64,000 nt of DNA from Microbulbifer taiwanensis. Lineage in GTDB: Bacteria > Pseudomonadota > Gammaproteobacteria > Pseudomonadales > Cellvibrionaceae. The stretch covers positions 1-64,000 of the forward strand of contig NZ_JACZFR010000036.1 in the NCBI RefSeq assembly GCF_014904815.1. Direction: 5' to 3'. The notes under the pieces are model-generated. The model saw nothing but the letters and a program-made list of their open reading frames with translations, made no database searches and had not been told where the DNA came from. The stretch's first letter is position 1, and each line of letters starts with the position of its first letter. The translations under genes and the position numbers were made by a program. Below, one piece after another: positions 1-52,206 of the stretch.

Positions 1-100
1 GGGGGGCCCCCCCGGGGGGGAACCCACCCGGGGTGGGGGGGGGGGCGCCCCCCCGGCGGGGGGGGGGGGGGGCGCTCGGAGGGGGTATTGAAGCAGTTGC
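1..100. other. G/C homopolymer low-complexity sequence
   Basis: The first 60 bases contain only four A or T residues, arranged as runs of G and C, and nothing codes. The pattern does not resemble the ordinary G+C-rich intergenic DNA elsewhere in the window. It looks like a contig-end or low-quality assembly artefact rather than biology. The adjacent receptor gene ends normally at 104. Confidence 0.6.
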
Positions 101-103
101 GGC

Positions 104-2329
104 CTAGAAAATAAACCGCACGCCGGCTTCGACGCTGCGGCCCATTTCCGGGGCGAAGTCGCGCAGCAGCGAGGCGGAGTTGCGGATTTCCTCGTCCAGC
201 AGGTTGCGGGCGCTGGCGAACAGCACCGCGTCGGTGCTGCCCAGCTTGAGGTTGTAGCGCGCGGTCAGGTCCATGCGCGTATAGCCATCGGTGGCTTCCT
301 CAAAGGCGCCGGCGCGTTCCTGTGCGGAAGCCTTGGTGGTGCGCAACTCCCAGTTCCACTGGTCGTAGTCGCCGCCCAGGGCGAGTCCGATACGCAGCGG
401 CGGCATACGCGGCACATCGCGGCTGTACTCGCGGCCCTCGCCTTCCTCGTGGTCGTGATCGTGGCCCGCTTCGCCTTCTTCTTCCCCGTGATGCAGGTCG
501 AGATCGCTGGTAAAGCTGGCGCGCACGCTGTCACCGAACAGCTCCACATAGTGGCCGCCGGCAAAGGGCAGGCGCACGGAGGCTTCGGCACCGTAGAAGA
601 CCGCATCGCGGTTGCTGTATCCGTAGACGGCCAGCTCTTCCTCGTGGTTTTCCTCGCCGGTGTTGGCCGCGTAGATATAGTCGGTCACGCGGTTGTAGAA
701 CAGGTTGGCTTCGACGCGGGCGGCGTGCCAGCCGGAGGCTTCTTCATTGTGGTGGTGGTAGCCCAGCTCCAGGTTGAAGGACTTCTCCTTGTCGAGATCC
801 TCTTCGCCTTCCAGGTAGCGGGCTTCCGCCAGGTGGGCGCCGTCGGCAAACAACTCCTCGGCCACCGGTGCGCGCTCTGCGTGGGTGGCACCGAAGCTCA
901 GGTGCTGGTGCTCGGCCAGGAAATACTGCAGGGTGCCGCTCAGCCCCAGCAGGTTAAAGTCCTGGCTTTCCCCCTGATCCGGATCGACGGAGACCTGCTC
1001 GGCGCGGCCGCCCAGATCCAGGTGCCAGTCACCCCAGGCGCGTTCCTTCATGGTGAAGAGGCCCACACTGCGGGTCTTGGACGGCTGCACGAAGGCCTCG
1101 TCGCCGATGGCCGCGAAGTCCTTGTTGGACAGCTGCAGGCCGTAGGCGCCGCGCCACTCGCCGCCGTCGTCGTGGGTCACTTCTATGCGGCTCTCCCAGG
1201 CCTCGTTGGTAAAGCGGGTGCCCTCGTGGAAGTGGTCTCCGTGGGCTTCCAGCTCCGTGTGCTCGTAGTCGTTGTAGCCGAGGCGCAGGCGCAGCTTGTC
1301 CCAGTAGCCGTCGTCGAACTGGTGTTCGCCCTTGAGGTCGTAGCGGGTCTGGGCCATATCGATACGCACGACTTCCGGCGCTTCGCCGTGCTCGTGCTCC
1401 TCGTGCTCGTCGCCCGCAGCTTCCTCTTCGTGGTGGTCTTCCTCCCCGTGCTCCTCTTCCTCATGGTGGTGTTCGTGGGCGCCGAGGGGAATACCGTAGT
1501 TGTTCTCGAGCTGGTTTACCGACAGGCCGACAAAGCCGGTTTCGGTGATCCAGGAGACGCCGCCGCTGTAGCTGTGGGCGCGGGCATTGGTGTTGCCGAC
1601 GAAACCGTCGGTGTTGAACTCTTCCTCTTCGTGCCCGTGTTCCTCACCGGCGTGCTCCTCGTCGTGGTGCGCTTCCTCGCGGTGGATGATGGCGAGGCCG
1701 GGGATCTCCGTGTCGTCGCTGTCGCGGTAGACGCCGTCCAGGTACCAGGCCACCCGGCCGGCGCCGCCGGACAGGCGGAAGACGCCGGCGTCCTGGCTGT
1801 TGCCGCTGTTGTGGCGCATCTCCAGGGCGCCCTCCAGCGCCTCGGGCACCTGGGTGGGGATGCGGCCGTCGATCACGTTCACCACGCCGCCGATGGCGCC
1901 GCTGCCGTAGCGTAGGGCGGCCGGGCCGCGCAATATCTCGATGCGCTGGGCCAGCAGTGGCTCGATGCTGGCGGCGTGGTCGGAGCTGGTATTGGAGGCA
2001 TCGGCCACGTCCAGGTTGTCGTTCAGCACCTTGACGCGGTTGGCGCTCTGGCCGCGAATCACCGGCAGGCCGACACCGCCGCCGAAGGAGGCGTTGGCCA
2101 CGCCCGGCTGGCTCTCCAGGGTCTGGCCCAGGGTTGCGGCAGCGGCGTCGCGCAGCGCCTCGCCGGACAGCACGGATACCGGTGCGGCCACGGCGTCGGC
2201 GGGCTTGTCCAGCGGGGATACGGTGACGTTGACCTCTTCCAGGGGCTGGCCGGTATTGTCGGCGGCGTAGGTGGCGGGCACGGTCAGGGCGCCGGCAATC
2301 GCCAGGGCCAGTTTGCTGGTCTTGTTCAT
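104..2329 (-). CDS. TonB-dependent receptor with His/Glu-rich loops (probable zinc receptor)
   Basis: Outer-membrane TonB-dependent receptor of 741 residues that should import a metal or metallophore using energy from TonB-ExbBD. The start at 2329 was chosen because it gives a clean signal peptide (about residues 1-22, ending ATYA) after an AGGA ribosome-binding site; the open frame runs further upstream but lacks coding character. A TonB-box-like LEEVNVTV stretch precedes a plug containing EILRGPAALRYGSGAIGG. The barrel ends in the expected aromatic residue (FIF). Three extracellular-type loops at about 216-238, 284-316 and 612-632 are almost entirely His, Glu and Asp. Such loops are known in zinc receptors of the ZnuD/TdfJ class, so zinc is the best guess; another divalent metal is possible. 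No convincing Zur box was seen upstream. Confidence 0.88.
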   Translation of the reverse strand: MNKTSKLALAIAGALTVPATYAADNTGQPLEEVNVTVSPLDKPADAVAAPVSVLSGEALRDAAAATLGQTLESQPGVANASFGGGVGLPVIRGQSANRVKVLNDNLDVADASNTSSDHAASIEPLLAQRIEILRGPAALRYGSGAIGGVVNVIDGRIPTQVPEALEGALEMRHNSGNSQDAGVFRLSGGAGRVAWYLDGVYRDSDDTEIPGLAIIHREEAHHDEEHAGEEHGHEEEEFNTDGFVGNTNARAHSYSGGVSWITETGFVGLSVNQLENNYGIPLGAHEHHHEEEEHGEEDHHEEEAAGDEHEEHEHGEAPEVVRIDMAQTRYDLKGEHQFDDGYWDKLRLRLGYNDYEHTELEAHGDHFHEGTRFTNEAWESRIEVTHDDGGEWRGAYGLQLSNKDFAAIGDEAFVQPSKTRSVGLFTMKERAWGDWHLDLGGRAEQVSVDPDQGESQDFNLLGLSGTLQYFLAEHQHLSFGATHAERAPVAEELFADGAHLAEARYLEGEEDLDKEKSFNLELGYHHHNEEASGWHAARVEANLFYNRVTDYIYAANTGEENHEEELAVYGYSNRDAVFYGAEASVRLPFAGGHYVELFGDSVRASFTSDLDLHHGEEEGEAGHDHDHEEGEGREYSRDVPRMPPLRIGLALGGDYDQWNWELRTTKASAQERAGAFEEATDGYTRMDLTARYNLKLGSTDAVLFASARNLLDEEIRNSASLLRDFAPEMGRSVEAGVRFIF

Positions 2330-44322: not shown

Positions 44323-44653
44323 GGGCGCGCTCGTTGTATGGCTGGCAATCCTGTGCAGTTTAGCGCAATGGGAATGCCGGGTTTAGCGGTTGGCGACACT
44401 CGCCGGAATTGTCGAGCGCAGTCTGCCTGATACTGGTACATCCGTATAGCCAGCGTAAAACCCATGTGCTAATTTCAATGCGCTGTTTCGAAAAAAATTG
44501 CGGAGAAAATAATAACGAATTTCGCTGCAGTAACTGGTACGCGAACATCTGCGTACCAACTTTTCGTTGATTATTTGTATTTCTCCACAGGCGGTTGCGC
44601 GCCATAAATGGCCCCGCCGCGCAGAAAATAAAAATAACCCTATGGAGAGATCG
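44323..44653. other. Divergent promoter region, ohrR and TonB receptor
   Basis: A 331-base gap between divergent genes with an A+T-rich middle (44480-44640). It must hold promoters for both, but no clear -35/-10 pair or named operator could be assigned by eye. Confidence 0.4.
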
Positions 44654-47161
44654 ATGAACAATGCCAAGTTGATTGGGCGGCATCCCCTCGCGCTGGCGAT
44701 TGCTGTTGCCGGCAGTCTCAGCGCCCAGGCTTTCGCCGAAGAGCTGGCGCTCGAAGAAGTGACGGTAACCGCGCAGAAGCGCGAACAGAATGCGCTGGAA
44801 GTGCCTGTGACCGTGGATACCTTTTCCAGCACCGATATGGAAAATACCAATGCGCTCAAGCTGAGCGATATGGCCGACTATATTCCCGGTTTTGAGGCCG
44901 GCAGCAGTGTTACCCAGTCGGCACTGAGTATCCGCGGTATCGAGAGCCCCAGTATCAGCGCCGGCGGCGATCCGTCGGTGGCAGTCTTCTACGACGACGC
45001 CTATGTACCCAGCCCGGCCACTTCCATGTCGTTTACCGATATGCAGCGGGTGGAGGTATTGAAGGGGCCGCAGGGCACGCTCTTCGGGCGCAACGCTGCC
45101 GCCGGTACGGTAAACATGGTGCCCAACCGGGCGCAGGCGGATTTCGATGCTTTCCTGTCTGCCCGCCTGGGAAACTTCGGCCTGCAGCAGTTGGAGGGCA
45201 TGCTCAACACGCCGCTCTCCGACAGTTTCTTTGTGCGCGGTAACCTGATGAGTTACCAGCGCGACGGCTATGTGGAAAATGTCTATCCCGGCGGCGTCGA
45301 CTCGGGGTCCGAAGATATCCTGACCGGGCGCCTCTCCGCCTGGTGGGATATCACCGACAACACATCGGCGCAGCTCTCCTACGATTGGGATGAAGTGGAC
45401 AGTGCACCGCGCCAGGCTATCGGTGTCAGCCCCTACAGCTACAGTATCGATCCCTTCGAGCGCAAGGTGGAGAACGACGTGATGGAGGGGGAGGAGACCC
45501 GCTCCATGTCCACCGTCAACGCCAAGCTGATGCACAGTTTCAATGACCGCTGGAGCATGAAATGGGTGTCCAGCTATCGCCAGTGGGAAACCAGCAATCG
45601 CGAGGAGGAGGACGGCACCGCGGAAATCAGCCGCTACCTGGACACCAACAATATCTTCGATTCGGATATCGGCTACCACGAGCTGCAGGTGAATTTCAGC
45701 GGCGATAAGGTGACTGCGGTCATGGGGGCCAACTACTCCCGCGAGAATATCTACCAGAGCACCGATGTCACCGCCACCGCCAGCTCCGTCACGCGGTTGG
45801 TCACCACCGATATCGTCAACAATCCCGAACTGCGCGCGCAGATCGCCGGCGGCGCGGCCCTGTCCGCCGGCGGCTTTCCGGGGGATGGCGGTATCGGTGA
45901 TATGGCGGCCGGCCAGGCACTGGCGGCCCTGGACAGTGTCGATCACCTGTGGGAGGCGGACGACTGGGCCACCTTTACCACCCTGGTTGCGCCGGCGATG
46001 GGGCTCACCGGCCCGCTGCCGCAGGTGGACGACTACTACGATGCGATTGCCTACAATGTCCTCGGTACCGGCATGCTGTTCGGTCCCTCATTCGCCGGCC
46101 GCAACTGGGTCGAGCGGGTGGAGAACGAGGGCGACTTCACCAACTGGGGCGTCTATTTCGATATGGACTATGCGCTCACCGACAGCATCAATATCCTCGC
46201 CGGCCTGCGCTACAGCACCGACGAGAAATCCTTCAGCTGGCTGACGCCGGGTACCAACTACCGCGACATACGCCCGGGTATGGAAGAGGTGATCTTCTCC
46301 ACTGCCGACGACTACAACGTAGGCCAGGGTGTGCGCGAGGCGCGCGAGGAGTGGAGTGCGACCACCGGCCGGCTGGTCGGCCAGTACCATTTCTCGGAAA
46401 CCGCCATGGCCTTCCTGTCCTACTCCACCGGCTACAAGTCCGGCGGTTTCGATTCCCTCAACCTGCTCACCGCCGATACGCCGATCGAGCCGGAGGAAGT
46501 GGACAATATCGAGCTGGGCGTTAAGGGCGATCTTGTGGAAAACCTGCTGCGGGTACAGGTCAGCTACTTCGACATGACCGTGGACAATCGCCAGCGCAGC
46601 GTAGAGAGCAAGCCGCCGGGCTCCGCCAATGCGTTGCCGCGCGTGATCAACGGTGACCAGCAGTTCAACGGCTTTGAGGTCACCGTGGACTGGCTGCCGC
46701 TGGATACCCTGCGCCTGGGTATGGTGACCACGGTGCGCGACGAGGAGTCCGAATGGGATCCCTTCTATGATGCAGAAGGGGAGCTACAGCAGGATCGCGA
46801 CAAGTCCTCGGTCAATACCGCCTACACGCTGGTCGTGGACTGGGCACCGGCGATCCCGGTCGGCGCCCTCAATGTGCACCTGGACTATATCTACGCGGAG
46901 AATACCGACGAGCTGGAGCCGGGTTATCTGGAGAGTTTCAGTGAAATCGACGGCGTCGGTGAGGACGACAAGCGCCTGAACGGGCGCATCAGCTGGATGA
47001 GCGGCAACGGCAGCTACGAGCTGGCATTCTGGGGCCGCAATCTGCTCGACAATGGGCGCGCGGATATTCCCAGCGGCCGCACGCTGGATGTGTTCGGTAC
47101 GCCCTACACGTCCATCTCCGAGCCGAGAAGCTACGGCGCCGAGCTGCGCTATAACTTCTGA
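44654..47161 (+). CDS. TonB-dependent receptor (outer-membrane importer)
   Basis: An 835-residue outer-membrane receptor. The ATG at 44654 follows GGAGAG by five bases; ATGs upstream are unsupported. The signal peptide ends around AQAFAEE, followed by EEVTVTAQKREQN, the same TonB-box style as the receptor at 18751. The plug contains RVEVLKGPQGTLFGRNAAAGTVN; the barrel ends in GAELRYNF. It is longer than 18751 by about 110 residues. The substrate is unknown, and no transporter or enzyme is in an operon with it. Confidence 0.92.
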   Translation: MNNAKLIGRHPLALAIAVAGSLSAQAFAEELALEEVTVTAQKREQNALEVPVTVDTFSSTDMENTNALKLSDMADYIPGFEAGSSVTQSALSIRGIESPSISAGGDPSVAVFYDDAYVPSPATSMSFTDMQRVEVLKGPQGTLFGRNAAAGTVNMVPNRAQADFDAFLSARLGNFGLQQLEGMLNTPLSDSFFVRGNLMSYQRDGYVENVYPGGVDSGSEDILTGRLSAWWDITDNTSAQLSYDWDEVDSAPRQAIGVSPYSYSIDPFERKVENDVMEGEETRSMSTVNAKLMHSFNDRWSMKWVSSYRQWETSNREEEDGTAEISRYLDTNNIFDSDIGYHELQVNFSGDKVTAVMGANYSRENIYQSTDVTATASSVTRLVTTDIVNNPELRAQIAGGAALSAGGFPGDGGIGDMAAGQALAALDSVDHLWEADDWATFTTLVAPAMGLTGPLPQVDDYYDAIAYNVLGTGMLFGPSFAGRNWVERVENEGDFTNWGVYFDMDYALTDSINILAGLRYSTDEKSFSWLTPGTNYRDIRPGMEEVIFSTADDYNVGQGVREAREEWSATTGRLVGQYHFSETAMAFLSYSTGYKSGGFDSLNLLTADTPIEPEEVDNIELGVKGDLVENLLRVQVSYFDMTVDNRQRSVESKPPGSANALPRVINGDQQFNGFEVTVDWLPLDTLRLGMVTTVRDEESEWDPFYDAEGELQQDRDKSSVNTAYTLVVDWAPAIPVGALNVHLDYIYAENTDELEPGYLESFSEIDGVGEDDKRLNGRISWMSGNGSYELAFWGRNLLDNGRADIPSGRTLDVFGTPYTSISEPRSYGAELRYNF

Positions 47162-47169
47162 CCCGCAAC

Positions 47170-47199
47170 TCGTCACTCCGGCGCAGGCCGGAGCCCAGC
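47170..47199. repeat. TCGTCATTCCGG-family repeat, half copy
   Basis: TCGTCACTCCGGCGCAGG at 47170-47187 matches the left arm of 24557-24574 except for one base. Only this arm is present; a separate GGGCCC-ended hairpin follows at about 47200-47230. Confidence 0.55.
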
Positions 47200-47341
47200 G
47201 GGCCCGGCTGCACTACTGCAGTAGGGCCCTTTTAGGTTTGCCAATAAGGGGGCCGTGATTCTTATCGGCAAAAAGGAATCATGGCTGCAACCGATAGACA
47301 CCGGTACGCCAGTCGCGGCCATAGTTTGTCGCGGGATTTCA

Positions 47342-48118
47342 CTAATTGCCGATCTGTGAAAGGTGCTCTCTCACCAGTAGCATAAAGTGATCTGGATTTT
47401 CCTGTGGCAACATATGGTTGACATCGGGAACGCAGAGCAGTCTGGAGCCATTGACCGATGCACTGACAGAGGCGCAGGTGACCTTGTTCAGGTGTCTGCT
47501 TTGCGAGCCAAAGGCAATGGTGGTGTCGACATTTATTTCCCCCAGTGAGTCCGCATCCAGTTGTGGCTGCTCACTCTGGTTCAATTGTAGGGGCAGCGTA
47601 TAGGCTTTGCTGAGTTGCTGCTGTCGATAGAAATCTGCCTGGGAACTGAAGTAGCCTTTCCGGTTTGCGGAGGCATCCATTAACAGTTCAACGGCCAGGG
47701 GCAGATCGCCTTGCTCTACGGCCTGGAATATCGGTGCAAACATCGCGTTCGCATCGGCCAGCCAGGAATTCATCTTTTCTTGTGGCACGGATCCCGGATA
47801 TCCCGGTTCGTACAGGAATACGCTCGCAACCGCACTACCGTGTCTTGTCAGAGTATTCAGCACGACATCTGCACCGTATGACCATGCCACTATGTGCGCC
47901 GGTTCGTGCAGGGATTTCAGAAAACCAGCCAGGTCGTCAGCGTGGGTGTTCAAGCCGAAGCTGCAGTCTTCGGCTGCGTCGAAGTGGCGCAGTGTTACGG
48001 CGCGGGCATCATATTCCGATTCGATGTTTGAGATATGGGGCTGCCACATCCGGGCATCGGCAAGTGCCCCGTGAACAAAAACGATGCACTCTCCCCGGTC
48101 TTTACTTACTCGGTTCAC
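47342..48118 (-). CDS. Alpha/beta hydrolase
   Basis: A 258-residue cytoplasmic alpha/beta hydrolase. It has the oxyanion segment FVHGALADARMW, the nucleophile elbow VAWSYGADVV (Ser-Tyr-Gly, where the first Gly of the usual GxSxG is replaced) and a C-terminal His in VNHMLPQENP. The substrate is unknown. It overlaps the map gene end by 17 bases on the same strand, so it may be the last gene of a ParD-like/map/hydrolase unit. Confidence 0.82.
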   Translation of the reverse strand: MNRVSKDRGECIVFVHGALADARMWQPHISNIESEYDARAVTLRHFDAAEDCSFGLNTHADDLAGFLKSLHEPAHIVAWSYGADVVLNTLTRHGSAVASVFLYEPGYPGSVPQEKMNSWLADANAMFAPIFQAVEQGDLPLAVELLMDASANRKGYFSSQADFYRQQQLSKAYTLPLQLNQSEQPQLDADSLGEINVDTTIAFGSQSRHLNKVTCASVSASVNGSRLLCVPDVNHMLPQENPDHFMLLVREHLSQIGN

Positions 48119-48935
48119 TTCTTACTACCTTGTTTATCGTGTTACTGCTGTGATCGGCTGTGGAACGCACCTCCTCAGCGCGGAGTGTAAGTACTTCACA
48201 GCCATCAGTGGTGACCAGCACCGTATGCTCCCACTGCGCCGACAGCCTGCCGTCGCGGGTCTCAACCGTCCAGCCGTCCTTTTTGGTTTTGGTCTTGCGG
48301 TCGCCCTGGTTGATCATCGGCTCTATGGTAAAGGTCATGCCCTCCTGTAAAAGGGTGCCGCTGTTGGGGCGGCCGTAGTGGAGTACCTGGGGCTCCTCGT
48401 GCATTTCCCGGCCTATCCCATGGCCGCAATACTCGCGCACCACACTGTAGCCGCGCCCTTCGGCGTGTTTCTGTATCGCATGGCCGATATCGCCCAGAGT
48501 TGCGCCGGGTCTGACCGCGTCTATGCCCTTCCACATGGCCTCGTAGGTTGTGTCCACCAGCTGCTTGGCCACCGGAGCCACGCCGCCGATCATATACATC
48601 TTGCTGGAGTCGGCGATAAAGCCGCTTTTTTCCAGGGTGATATCCACATTGACGATATCGCCGTTTTTCAATAACTGCGACGCCCGCGGCATGCCGTGGC
48701 AGACCACCTCGTTGACCGAGGTGTTGAGCGAATAGGGATAGCCGTACTGGCCCTTGCTGGCCGGCCTGGCCTGGAGCTCCCCGACGATAAACGCCTCGAC
48801 CCTGTCGTTGATCTGCATGGTGGAAACGCCGGGGGCGATAAAGTCATCCAGCATGGCGAAGACCCGCGCCAGCAGCCGGCCGGCGTCGCGCATCAGCGCC
48901 TGCTCGGCGGTGTTTTTGATTCTGATGTTATTCAC
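48102..48935 (-). CDS. map: Type I methionine aminopeptidase
   Basis: Removes N-terminal Met from nascent proteins using two divalent metals. The 277 residues carry all the ligands: His of CHGMP, Asp in VNVDITLEK and ADSSKM, His in GHGIGREMHE, Glu in TIEPM and QWEHTV. Bacterial map normally sits beside rpsB; this copy instead begins inside the last codons of a ParD-like gene (8-base overlap). The genome may therefore contain another map, which would make this an accessory copy (inference). Confidence 0.94.
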   Translation of the reverse strand: MNNIRIKNTAEQALMRDAGRLLARVFAMLDDFIAPGVSTMQINDRVEAFIVGELQARPASKGQYGYPYSLNTSVNEVVCHGMPRASQLLKNGDIVNVDITLEKSGFIADSSKMYMIGGVAPVAKQLVDTTYEAMWKGIDAVRPGATLGDIGHAIQKHAEGRGYSVVREYCGHGIGREMHEEPQVLHYGRPNSGTLLQEGMTFTIEPMINQGDRKTKTKKDGWTVETRDGRLSAQWEHTVLVTTDGCEVLTLRAEEVRSTADHSSNTINKVVRSEPSK

Positions 48936-49134
48936 GGGTCAGTTCTTCCAGCGTCGGCGTCTGTGCGCGCAGCAGCTTCTTGCACAGCTGGTTGTAACTC
49001 AGCTCCGGATTGAGCTCCGCCAGCATGCCGATCTTGATCCAGAATTCCGCCTGCGCATTGATGGAGCGCGTCATGGCAGTGCTCGCCTTGCGTATCTCGT
49101 CGTGCAGCTCTTCGGAAATTTTGACTATACCCAT
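48928..49134 (-). CDS. ParD-like antitoxin-type protein
   Basis: A 68-residue protein of the ParD-like family (ribbon-helix-helix-type antitoxin relatives). The N-terminal VKISEELHDEIRKAST is strand plus helix, followed by RSINAQAEFWIKIGMLAE, then a C-terminal helix that in true ParD wraps the toxin. No ParE-type toxin is present; instead methionine aminopeptidase overlaps its end by 8 bases. The upstream 49150-49180 is A+T-rich and has TATAAT on the minus strand at 49174-49179, suitable for a promoter or self-operator. Confidence 0.8.
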   Translation of the reverse strand: MGIVKISEELHDEIRKASTAMTRSINAQAEFWIKIGMLAELNPELSYNQLCKKLLRAQTPTLEELTRE

Positions 49135-49278
49135 GCGCTTTTGCCCCTAGCTGAATATACAAATCATATATAAATTATATAAAGCGGGCAAAGGGCTTTA
49201 CGATATGCAATTTGTTGCATAACTGATTTTGCGACGTTAAGGTGGAGCAATAACAACAGCAATAGCCGTGAGGCCGCT

Positions 49279-50994
49279 ATGGTCCAGTCAGCAGAAACTC
49301 CGCGCAGCGCTCCCAAACCCAGCCGTCTTCGCATAGGCAGGCGCTACAGGCCCGGCCGCCTCGAGGGTCCTTACGATGCGCTGGTGATAGGCTCGGGGAT
49401 CGGTGGCCTGACGACCGCGGCCATGCTGAGTGCTGCCGGCAAGAAGGTGCTGGTACTGGAGCAGCACTACACCGCCGGTGGATTCACCCACGCCTACGAT
49501 CGCAATGGCTACGAGTGGGATGTGGGGGTGCACTATATCGGCGATGTCGGCGAGCACCCGACGGTCACCCGCAGGCTGTTCGATTTCCTCTCCGCCGGCA
49601 GGCTCAAATGGGCGCCGATGGATGCCACCTACGACCGCATCTGCATCGGCGACGAGCAGTACGACCTGCGCGCCGGGCGCGACGAATTTATCGATGAAAT
49701 GGTGCGGCGCTTTCCCGGCGAGCGGGCAACCATCGAGGAATACCTGCACCGGGTCAATGCGGTGGCCAAGGCCATGCCGCTGCGGACTGTGGAAAAACTG
49801 TTGCCGCGTTGGTGCGGGCCCGCGGTCCGCCTGTTGCGCAGATTGCGCGAGCCGTCATGGCTGAACAAAACCACCTATGAAGTGTTGCGCCAGCTGACTG
49901 ACAACGAACAGTTGATAGCGGTGCTGACCGGCCAGTGGGGCGACAACGGTATGACGCCCAAGACCGGCAGTTTCATCATCCACGCGCTGATAGTCCGGCA
50001 CTATCTGTACGGCGGCTACTACCCGGTTGGCGGTGCCAGCCAGATTGCCGAGACGATCATTCCGCAGATACAGAAGTCCGGCGGCGAGGTATTCACCTAC
50101 GCAGAGGTGGAAACCATACTGCTCGACGGCAACCGCGTGCGTGGGCTGCGCATGGCGGATGGCACCGAGATAGAGGCACCGCTGGTCATTTCCGGTGCGG
50201 GGGTTTTCAATACCTTCGAAAAACTGTTGCCGCAGAGCGCCAGTGGGCAGGCCGGCTACAGTCGCGACCTGGAAAGCGTGCAGCGTTCAATGGCCCATGT
50301 CTGCCTCTATATCGGCCTGCAGAAGACCGCCGAGGAGCTGGGATTGCCGAAAACCAATTACTGGCTCTACCCGAGCGCCGACTACGATGGCGAGGTGCAG
50401 AAGTTCCTCGAAGACAGCGAGCGGGAAATCCCCCTGGTCTACATCTCCTTCCCGTCCGCCAAGGACCCCAGTTTCATAAAACGCTACCCGGGCCGCGCCA
50501 CCATCGAGATAGTCGCGCCGGGCAAGTACGAGTGGTTTGCCCGGTGGCACGACCAGCCCTGGGGCAAGCGCGGCGACGAATACGAGGCGCTGAAGGAAAA
50601 ATACAGCCAGCGCCTGCTCGAGCACCTCTACAAACACTTCCCGCAGCTGCGCGGACAGATAGACTACTGCGAACTGTCCACACCGCTGTCCACCGACTAC
50701 TTCTGTTCCTACCCGCGCGGCGAGATCTACGGCCTGGACCACGATCCCAATCGCTTCGAGCAGCCCTGGCTGCGCCCGCAGAGCCGCATCAAAGGACTCT
50801 ACCTGACCGGACAGGACATCATGAGCTGCGGCGTCGCCGGCGCCATGATCGGCGGCGTGGTTACCGCGCAGAGTATTCTCGGCTGGCGCAGGGGCGTGTC
50901 CCTGTTGAAGCGCATTCTGGCCGCGCCGCTCAAGGTCAGTGATGAATCGCCGGTGGCGGACAGTATCGATGGAACGGCTGCGGAAAATCAGTAG
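49279..50994 (+). CDS. FAD-dependent oxidoreductase of the phytoene desaturase/retinol saturase type
   Basis: A 571-residue flavoprotein. The N-terminal dinucleotide fold is DALVIGSGIGGLTTAAML with VLEQHYTAGGFTH, the pattern of phytoene desaturases, carotenoid isomerases and retinol saturase; the central WDVGVHYIGDVG favours the last. The C-terminus has LTGQDIMSCGVAGAMIGG. No transmembrane helix is obvious. It abuts a thioesterase gene, so a polyunsaturated or isoprenoid acyl substrate is possible. No other carotenoid genes are nearby, so a role in carotenoid synthesis is doubtful. Confidence 0.85.
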   Translation: MVQSAETPRSAPKPSRLRIGRRYRPGRLEGPYDALVIGSGIGGLTTAAMLSAAGKKVLVLEQHYTAGGFTHAYDRNGYEWDVGVHYIGDVGEHPTVTRRLFDFLSAGRLKWAPMDATYDRICIGDEQYDLRAGRDEFIDEMVRRFPGERATIEEYLHRVNAVAKAMPLRTVEKLLPRWCGPAVRLLRRLREPSWLNKTTYEVLRQLTDNEQLIAVLTGQWGDNGMTPKTGSFIIHALIVRHYLYGGYYPVGGASQIAETIIPQIQKSGGEVFTYAEVETILLDGNRVRGLRMADGTEIEAPLVISGAGVFNTFEKLLPQSASGQAGYSRDLESVQRSMAHVCLYIGLQKTAEELGLPKTNYWLYPSADYDGEVQKFLEDSEREIPLVYISFPSAKDPSFIKRYPGRATIEIVAPGKYEWFARWHDQPWGKRGDEYEALKEKYSQRLLEHLYKHFPQLRGQIDYCELSTPLSTDYFCSYPRGEIYGLDHDPNRFEQPWLRPQSRIKGLYLTGQDIMSCGVAGAMIGGVVTAQSILGWRRGVSLLKRILAAPLKVSDESPVADSIDGTAAENQ

Positions 50995-51429
50995 ATGAAT
51001 GGCCCCAGACCAATATCGCGCGAGCGCTACCGGGTCTTTTACCCCATCAGCACCCGCTGGCAGGACAATGATATCTACGGTCATGTGAATAACGTGACCT
51101 ACTACTCCTATTTCGACTCGGCGGTAAACCGCTACCTGATCGAGGAGGGCGGGCTGGATATTCACCACGCGCCGGTGGTGGGCTATGTGGTGAATTCCAG
51201 CTGCGACTACCGTGCCGCGATTGCCTATCCGGAGGAAATCGAGGCGGGGCTGCGGGTGGAGAAGCTGGGCAATAGTTCCGTGACTTATGGAGTAGGGATC
51301 TTCCGGCGCGACGGGGAAGAGGCCTGTGCGGTGGGCAGCTTTACCCATGTGTTCGTGGATCGGGTGGAGAACCGGTCGGTGGCGATTCCGCCGCGGATCA
51401 GGATGGCGCTGGAAGCGCTATTGAAGTAG
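50995..51429 (+). CDS. Acyl-CoA thioesterase (4HBT hotdog)
   Basis: A 144-residue hotdog-fold thioesterase. The segment WQDNDIYGHVNNVTYYSYFDSA has the Asp and helix of YbgC/FadM-type enzymes. The ATG follows the flavoprotein stop with no gap, so the two genes are translationally linked. The C-terminus ends at a basic ALEALLK. Confidence 0.88.
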   Translation: MNGPRPISRERYRVFYPISTRWQDNDIYGHVNNVTYYSYFDSAVNRYLIEEGGLDIHHAPVVGYVVNSSCDYRAAIAYPEEIEAGLRVEKLGNSSVTYGVGIFRRDGEEACAVGSFTHVFVDRVENRSVAIPPRIRMALEALLK

Positions 51430-51543
51430 ACAGTTTCGCGGTTGCGGATACTATGTTCGCGGCCATCCGCCCATGGCCGCGATCGATTTTGAGGCTTCAC
51501 CAAAGCCGCAGTCTTATTAGATGTTTGAAGCTGGAGAGAGCAG

Positions 51544-52206
51544 TTGCGGCCATACCGCCCACCCACAAAGCCCTACCTGGCGGTCGTCTACGCCGATGAG
51601 TCGCTGTTAGTGCTGGACAAGCCCTGCGGCCTGCTCAGCGTGCCCGGGCGCGACCCCGCCCACCGCGACAGCCTGGCCAGTAGGGCGCAGGCGGAGTACC
51701 CGGGTGCACTGATAGTGCACCGCCTCGATATGGATACCTCCGGCCTGGTGGTGATGGCGCGGGACCCCGAGGCACACCGAAAACTCAGCGCCCTCTTCCA
51801 GAACCGATTGGTAGAGAAAAAGTACCTTGCGAAAGTGTGGGGGGAGCCGGAAGCGGAGACGGGGGAAATCGACCTGCCGCTGATCTGCGACTGGCCCAAC
51901 CGCCCGCGGCAGAAGGTGGACTATGAAGTTGGCAAGCCATCGCTGACCCACTGGAAGAAAATCGCCGCTGCCCGTAACTGCAGCCTGATGGAATTGCAAC
52001 CAGTCACCGGGCGCTCGCACCAGCTGCGGGTGCACCTGCAGGCGATAGGTCACCCCATTCTCGGCGATCCCTTCTACGCCCATCCGCAAGCACTGGCGGC
52101 CGCGCCGCGACTGTTGCTGCACGCGGCGGAGCTGACCCTCAACCATCCGGAAAGCAGGAAGCGGATGCACTTTACCAGCGCGCCGGATGAAAGCTTACTT
52201 CAATAG
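51544..52206 (+). CDS. rluA: Pseudouridine synthase RluA
   Basis: Makes pseudouridine in 23S rRNA and certain tRNAs in the RluA family. The 220 residues match E. coli RluA length. The catalytic Asp is in HRLDMDTSGL, with PVTGRSHQLRVHL and GHPILGDPFYA further on. No S4 domain is present, as expected for RluA and unlike RluC or RluD. The TTG start at 51544 is set by GGAGAG five bases upstream. Confidence 0.9.
   Translation: MRPYRPPTKPYLAVVYADESLLVLDKPCGLLSVPGRDPAHRDSLASRAQAEYPGALIVHRLDMDTSGLVVMARDPEAHRKLSALFQNRLVEKKYLAKVWGEPEAETGEIDLPLICDWPNRPRQKVDYEVGKPSLTHWKKIAAARNCSLMELQPVTGRSHQLRVHLQAIGHPILGDPFYAHPQALAAAPRLLLHAAELTLNHPESRKRMHFTSAPDESLLQ

Follow-up and report, generated by a model that had tools for sequence, protein, structure and literature searches.

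A mobile ParD-like and methionine aminopeptidase gene pair with a conserved putative operator and an altered S1 pocket

The window analyzed here, a whole stretch of 64,000 nucleotides of Microbulbifer taiwanensis DNA, contains a small ParD-like gene followed by an overlapping map gene for a type I methionine aminopeptidase (MetAP; its product is called Map below). We consider it probable (about 0.7) that such pairs are mobile cassettes in which an accessory MetAP isozyme with an altered S1 pocket stands under a dedicated ribbon-helix-helix (RHH) autorepressor. Judged by sequence comparison, the reading draws on the pairing of the genes, the putative operator in front of them, the near-uniqueness of that operator genome-wide, a catalytic site that is intact, and the altered pocket. 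We propose that map is translationally coupled to the upstream repressor gene and that ParD-like dimers would bind side by side on an array of ATAYGAWTCRTAT palindromes over the promoter. The bound protein would repress the two-gene operon, its only or main target, and upon derepression Map would serve the cell as a working isozyme, either adding to the housekeeping activity or taking its place.

The locus and its genes

The features of the locus are collected in Table 1. The ParD-like protein belongs to PF11903 (ParD_like), with 90.5 bits against a cutoff of 23, and Map belongs to TIGR00500 (met_pdase_I), with 297.6 bits against 171.35; the downstream hydrolase scored 47.5 bits with Abhydrolase_6. 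The reading frames confirm the overlaps first described for this locus, of 8 bases between the ParD-like gene, which comes first, and map, and of 17 bases between map and the hydrolase gene. The word "fused" in the title of the initial annotation was mistaken, and a fusion was ruled out, since these are two overlapping reading frames. The pair is flanked by the hydrolase gene and, on the opposite strand, by an oxidoreductase gene, and none of the listed surrounding ORFs was recognized as ParE, in line with the toxin having been called missing.

Table 1. Features of the ParD-like/map locus, in window coordinates
Feature	Position	Strand	Description	Family or remark
ParD-like gene	48928-49134	(-)	68 aa, ATG start, MGIVKI...	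PF11903; proposed ribbon-helix-helix autorepressor
map, type I methionine aminopeptidase	48102-48935	(-)	277 aa, GTG start	TIGR00500
Alpha/beta hydrolase	47342-48118	(-)	GTG start	Abhydrolase_6; outside conserved unit
Putative operator, two 13-bp palindromic boxes	49168-49180 + 49157-49169	(-)	11 bp apart, over putative -10	
Putative sigma-70-like promoter	49163-49191	(-)	TTGCCC-17-TATGAT	overlapped by putative operator

The source genome (4.82 Mb, 99.89% complete) contains a single PF11903 gene. It also encodes another type I Map, whose gene is flanked by rpsB and glnD on a different contig. The window Map is an extra copy of the genome, situated away from rpsB as had been supposed, and the possibility that it is the sole map, named in the initial annotation as what would refute its proposal, was discarded once the search for a second gene recovered the rpsB-linked copy. 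By its ParD-like gene, the window locus is closest to other Microbulbifer loci among the best 80 of at least 597 relatives; compared with the Map of the closest one (L041), the window Map has 18 additional residues. No relative of the hydrolase was present among the ORFs called in 80 loci (L041 to L120), so the hydrolase gene is local and lies outside the conserved unit, and a conserved three-gene operon that includes it was rejected.

Several searches around the pair were negative. No RNA element reached the Rfam gathering scores in positions 46500 to 50000, no PADLOC model of a defense system matched, PHROGs returned only matches of unknown function, and no phage record matched the ParD-like protein; four viral contigs did.

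Recurrence of the pair and of its upstream boxes

Recurrence was assessed with a species-level scan (one genome each) that started from nine aligned ParD-like proteins, confirmed at least 597 relatives, and retained the best 80. Together with three plasmid loci picked by hand and four loci on viral contigs, these gave 87 loci. A Map frame lay downstream on the same strand in 86 of the 87, a rate inflated by the choice of loci by similarity to Map-linked ParD-like proteins and, for the three plasmid loci, by hand; at the remaining locus, L123, the Map frame is divergent and upstream of the ParD-like gene. Counted from where the ParD-like stop codon ends, Map starts were offset by -4 in 32 loci, -8 in 31, -1 in 9, -32 in 6, -11 in 3, -14 in 2, and +1 in 2, with no start found in 1. 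A start overlapping the ParD-like stop could be placed in 83/86 loci by a script that favored starts near the overlap. The Map frame was interrupted in three loci (L065, L066, and L115) and cut by the contig end in a fourth (L121).

The hosts include Microbulbifer, Vibrio, Pseudomonas, Serratia, Rheinheimera, and Marinobacter, all gammaproteobacteria, as well as Burkholderia (beta) and Pseudovibrio, Stappia, and Brucella thiophenivorans (alpha). The initial statement that the pair recurs in other proteobacteria was thus borne out. The ParD-like protein also matched 162 plasmid records, and pairs were found on plasmids of Pseudoalteromonas, Pantoea, Psychrobacter, Salmonella, Acinetobacter, and Catenovulum. 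An Acinetobacter nosocomialis plasmid carries a Map without an adjacent ParD-like gene (by annotation and motif), and the Salmonella plasmid copy had no DNA match in complete E. coli genomes.

Within the genus of the window, PF11903 is patchy (28/48 genomes), and Map adjoined the gene in all eight of the best PF11903 genomes that were fetched. An even sample of the class contained PF11903 in 49/274 genomes; among the 29 best-scoring loci of that sample besides the window (L009 to L037), Map was adjacent in four (L009, L012, L013, and L015). Another, L010, had no Map; the weak map-like trace there contains three stops and was not matched by the window Map. We also counted type I Maps above the cutoff in 30 genomes with a ParD-like gene of this branch (25 behind the best-80 loci and 5 of the class sample), and 29 of them had at least two; the other, the host of L010 (G052), had one, besides the weak trace with stops beside its ParD-like gene.

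The other 24 loci of the class sample belong to a different PF11903 branch. A ParE-like frame lies just downstream in 18/24 of them by a loose motif scan (13/19 in an earlier scan), and the six ParE-like frames tested were all PF15781 (ParE-like_toxin), with 108 to 122 bits against a cutoff of 28. Since a ParE-like toxin stands beside the sister branch and Map beside this one, PF11903 has toxin-linked and Map-linked branches.

The region preceding the ParD-like start carries 13-bp palindromes (ATAYGAWTCRTAT) that recur with a period of 11 bp, roughly one turn of DNA. Among 99 upstream regions (97 distinct, window included), a box with at most two mismatches was present in 94 and with at most one in 75. 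The corresponding numbers were 9 and 0 in 1,559 control 90-mers from the same loci and 84 and 8 in 1,980 sequences resampled (first order) from the upstream regions. At least two boxes in 11-bp register, each with at most three mismatches, occurred in 92/99 regions versus 2/1,583 controls. A single-box search inside the window gave 20 matches versus 13.9 expected, and 8 of 100 shuffles reached 20; as this search is not significant alone, the evidence for the operator is comparative. The candidate promoter matches at 9 of 12 positions, and two such sites were present in positions 47000 to 49400 versus 1.1 expected from shuffles, which is weak alone; the boxes cover the -10 of this weak match. 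The putative operator, spanning 49157 to 49180, fits the guess that autoregulation would act at 49150 to 49180, and it appears to be of the autoregulatory type found in type II toxin-antitoxin (TA) modules.

We then searched whole genomes for the relaxed double box (at most one mismatch), which was found in 10 of 12 and, with a backwards control, in none of 12. It occurs once in the 4.82 Mb of the source genome, at the pair, and the other nine genomes each have one site at the pair, by coordinates. The lone additional double box (G292) lies at a truncated ParD-like remnant, locus L212, with residues 1 to 20 (60% identity; E value, 2.7e-4). Two genomes that carry the pair, G280 and G294, had no double box at this threshold. 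The boxes were not seen with either gene's other company: upstream of toxin-linked relatives the best box had 3 to 6 mismatches (19 loci), and the four Maps described below that have the altered pocket and no ParD-like gene showed no operator, the best box within 300 bases having 3 or 4 mismatches. The toxin-linked relatives display another upstream motif, TACAAWTGTA-like by eye.

The boxes stay with the ParD-like gene where the Map is of another lineage: three were found at L122, two each at L039 and L101, one at L009, and a single weak one at L092. At the divergent L123, a double operator sits between the two genes (931 to 954). If L123 is not a chance arrangement, the regulator and its operator were kept together while the Map partner changed.

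The pairing of ParD-like gene and Map is beyond chance. That two unrelated genes merely share a transcription unit is hardly credible: only the third gene of the operon, the hydrolase gene, behaves in this way, whereas the pair is found again in three classes and also on plasmids, one operator accompanying two or three lineages of Map.

Active site and S1 pocket of the ParD-linked Maps

The metal ligands of E. coli MetAP are D97, D108, H171, E204, and E235 (PMC2238726). Aligned with the E. coli enzyme, the window Map keeps all five, as had been claimed for it, together with H79 and H178, and these residues are invariant in 93/93 ParD-linked Maps and in 27/27 others (the latter including L123). 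There is no sign of a dead or noncatalytic Map, the metal ligands being intact.

We compared seven positions that we take to form the S1 pocket, including C59 and C70. By ungapped alignment, the window Map has S60, Q63, Y66, N71, H80, M178, and W222 at E. coli positions 59, 62, 65, 70, 79, 177, and 221. The cysteine conserved at E. coli position 70 is thus Asn in the window, a pocket variant. Y62, Y65, F177, W221, and H79 of the E. coli enzyme are named in the available text of PMC2238726. The remodeled set C59S, Y62Q, C70N, and F177M was found complete in 81 of 87 distinct ParD-linked Maps and in 0/27 other Maps. One further ParD-linked Map keeps C59 with the other three changes, and five belong to another lineage (N-Y-F/Y-C/L-H-Y-W). 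Counted singly, C70 is Asn in 82/87 and C59 is Ser in 81/87, while C70 is kept in 27/27 other Maps; W221 is kept, and position 65 is Tyr or Phe in the ParD-linked Maps. The chance that at least 4 of 7 pocket positions fall among 15 group-specific columns placed at random over 277 is 0.0002, a rough figure, as alignment columns are not independent. Li and co-workers in 2004 reportedly found that E. coli MetAP altered at C70 admits Leu and Phe into the pocket and that Y65 and W221 are essential.

A Map profile search of the 274 genomes, with the 30 best loci examined (L163 to L192), recovered four pairs with a pocket-type Map and a further four pocket-type Maps that have no ParD-like neighbor (G016, G166, G073, and G248). 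We therefore dropped the idea that the pocket marks only the pair, since the full set occurred in 4/26 Maps without such a neighbor (L167 to L192). Two Maps beside an rpsB-like ORF (L177 and L178) have C59S with F177I or F177M and keep Y62 and C70. In G016 (97% complete) and G166 (94%), no type I Map other than the pocket-type one scores above the cutoff, and that one lies on a different contig from rpsB. A pocket-type Map can probably do the essential MetAP job, if one reads these two incomplete assemblies, from which contigs may be missing, at face value.

A tree of 81 Maps, with ParD-linked rows thinned at 85% identity, placed the ParD-linked Maps in two clades among others, of 49 rows (SH-aLRT 100) and 5 rows (SH-aLRT 99), in a quick reconstruction. 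Two separate recruitments of Map would fit this tree, but an AU test did not reject a single clade (P = 0.29). The L123 Map, labeled "other" in the tree, falls in yet another clade with L147, L150, and L154 (SH-aLRT 100).

Compared with other TIGR00500 enzymes (E. coli 1mat; closest solved chains, 4juq and 4fo7), the window Map shares the family score, the metal ligands, and W221 but differs in its four pocket changes, its position away from rpsB, and the possession of what appears to be its own regulator. Both S1-pocket cysteines being replaced, it is possible, if doubtful, that the isozyme serves resistance or stress, working when the housekeeping Map is poisoned by natural MetAP inhibitors, thiol-reactive compounds, oxidants, or metal stress; this would be compatible with an autorepressed accessory MetAP. 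The contrast at C59 and C70 between ParD-linked and other Maps speaks for it, as does the patchy distribution in the genus. Bengamides target MetAP. They are made by myxobacteria (PMC9228497), which we reckon in its favor, and the S1-pocket cysteine, present in all MetAP1, is covalently modifiable by some specific inhibitors according to a review (PMC12028322). Against it, the neighborhoods read by annotation had no link to inhibitor biosynthesis. Regarding the class of agent, type I MetAPs with Met or Ile at the E. coli F177 position are reportedly sensitive to ovalicin, which argues against fumagillin-type resistance.

The ParD-like protein and the role of the cassette

The N terminus MGIVKI is nearly invariant among the ParD-like proteins, with Gly2 and Ile6 in 97/97 and Ile3 in 95/97 (91 of the 97 being distinct pairs). 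The inferred start lies 29 residues before an E-[FYH]-W motif in 97/97, with no insertion or deletion, and uses ATG in 87, TTG in 8, and GTG in 4 (n = 99); upstream in-frame alternatives exist in 58/87 loci, 31 of them ATG. Toxin-linked relatives have 30 to 32 residues before the motif in 18 of the 19 in which it was found, and for one (L036) the script found no ATG, with a GTG at 30. The tail past residue 55 is variable. Mean conservation of the tail (W+24 to W+36), computed by hand, was 1.3 bits in 39 dereplicated Map-linked proteins versus 2.2 bits in 18 toxin-linked proteins without dereplication; over the N-terminal strand (W-31 to W-26) it reached 4.1 versus 2.7 bits.

An AlphaFold2 model of the monomer (mean pLDDT, 86) has helices at residues 8 to 20, 25 to 41, 47 to 57, and 62 to 66 and an N-terminal stretch without helix. 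The predicted pattern fits an RHH monomer with extra C-terminal helices. Foldseek with this monomer gave no PDB match at an E value of ≤0.001, and no PDB relative of the ParD-like protein was convincing. Weak family matches among 37 relatives were to an RHH antitoxin family (4) and the Omega repressor (1), besides the unrelated family ExsD_M (7/37), for which the window protein was below the cutoff.

MetJ, CopG, Omega, and NikR are RHH repressors that bind tandem repeats. The ParD-like protein resembles them in having a short N-terminal stretch and then two helices, with boxes about one DNA turn apart, and differs from them in the 13-bp palindromes at 11-bp spacing and the apparently single target operon. 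A further difference is that the strand presumed to bind DNA starts with the initiator Met. The initiator Met would lie inside that strand because the start is at least one residue shorter than in toxin-linked relatives. The Met-Gly N terminus, with Gly2 invariant, is an ideal MetAP substrate. Tentatively, and we think this unlikely, the repressor might gauge MetAP capacity through its own initiator Met, as a direct sensor of N-terminal methionine excision. With ample MetAP, Met1 would be removed and the repressor would close the operon; with MetAP limiting or inhibited, Met1 would stay, DNA binding would fail, and the spare pocket-altered Map would be made. Two purposes of the cassette thus remain, a stress- or inhibitor-proof isozyme or a homeostatic loop via the repressor's initiator Met.

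The layout also recalls RHH type II TA operons (parDE, relBE, and GNAT-RHH), in which a small DNA-binding gene likewise precedes an overlapping second gene, a palindromic operator overlies the promoter, and the unit is mobile. Read as such a system, unbound pocket-altered Map would harm the cell by over- or wrong trimming, the ParD-like protein would bind and neutralize it, and autoregulation and plasmid maintenance would follow as in parDE or relBE. We judge this quite improbable. The gene order and overlap within one operon, the autoregulatory-type operator, and the presence on plasmids all suit it, as do the PF15781 toxins that adjoin the sister branch and the intact ParD-like genes beside an interrupted Map (L065, L066, and L115) or beside at most a map trace (L010); the interrupted cases, however, are biased, the loci having been found via the ParD-like gene. 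Antitoxins usually grip their toxin through the C-terminal tail. Here the tail is the least conserved part of the ParD-like protein, less so than the N-terminal strand, although the comparison group was small and not dereplicated. Moreover, the partner is an intact housekeeping-type enzyme, and a pocket-type Map without a ParD-like neighbor is the only type I MetAP above the cutoff in G016 and G166, which makes an inherently toxic pocket improbable. The toxin-linked PF11903 relatives also lack the operator of the pair. Altogether, the TA reading explains layout and mobility equally well and fits the tail and the sole-MetAP genomes less well. Of the two suggestions first made for the locus, that the ParD-like protein controls Map dosage appears well supported by the comparisons above, while that an extra Map is the effector of a TA system found no support.

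The two genes are already named side by side in public annotation, and the system is undescribed as far as the literature searched reaches. No paper on the pair was found among the matches listed in open-licence literature, which mostly excludes subscription journals; one candidate (PMC3948609) proved unrelated in its available text. The word "aminopeptidase" occurs neither in a large TA survey (PMC2701414; main text) nor in the available text of a marine survey (PMC12654330), which lists "HY/ParD-like (6)" with a hypothetical partner. What appears new here is the conserved putative operator and the remodeled S1 pocket in ParD-linked Maps.

N-terminal methionine excision is usually treated as constitutive housekeeping, and MetAP is a drug target. 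The cassette would be a second MetAP that controls its own expression, differs at four S1-pocket positions, and is widespread and often carried on plasmids. If the autorepressed accessory MetAP is real, bacteria regulate methionine excision, are able to exchange the enzyme that performs it, and may already possess a way around MetAP inhibitors. In PF11903, an "antitoxin" family, one branch probably has an enzyme under its regulation, so the family label can mislead annotation.

Flanks, records and copies of the pair

The features considered here are listed in the table. In the second, dead copy (locus L212), the remnant of the ParD-like gene keeps residues 1 to 20 at 60% identity; by eye, the ORF downstream of it appears AraC-like. 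At L123, Map belongs to a different lineage, and the double operator (two palindromic boxes) is intergenic between the divergent genes. On the Acinetobacter plasmid, blaOXA-58 is situated ~1.6 kb from the pair, with transposase genes close by. NZ_CP141089.1 (Escherichia coli, 4.94 Mb) is a plasmid entry in PLSDB, yet is chromosome-like judging from its length.

Features of the ParD-like/Map loci and their positions
Locus	Position	Strand	Feature
Window	44567-47161	+	TonB-dependent receptor; one flank of the pair
Window	49279-52206	+	FAD oxidoreductase, thioesterase, pseudouridine synthase; opposite flank
L212 (genome G292)	1429-1524		Double operator, then ParD-like remnant; second, dead copy
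L123 (IMG/VR contig)	1-1185		ParD-like gene and Map, divergently oriented
L123	931-954		Double operator
L194 (KY984047.1, Acinetobacter baumannii plasmid, 24.8 kb)			ParD-like/Map pair

Pocket-variant Map as the sole type I enzyme found

In two genomes of ~1.7 Mb each (G016, locus L167; G166, locus L168), the sole type I methionine aminopeptidase found is the pocket variant, the Map with altered S1 residues; its gene lies apart from rpsB, and no ParD-like gene adjoins it.

The toxin-linked branch of PF11903

The other PF11903 branch (within L011-L037) adjoins a ParE-like toxin, the neighbor being PF15781 in all six cases tested (6/6). Its upstream motif is TACAAWTGTA-like and differs from the Map-linked operator.
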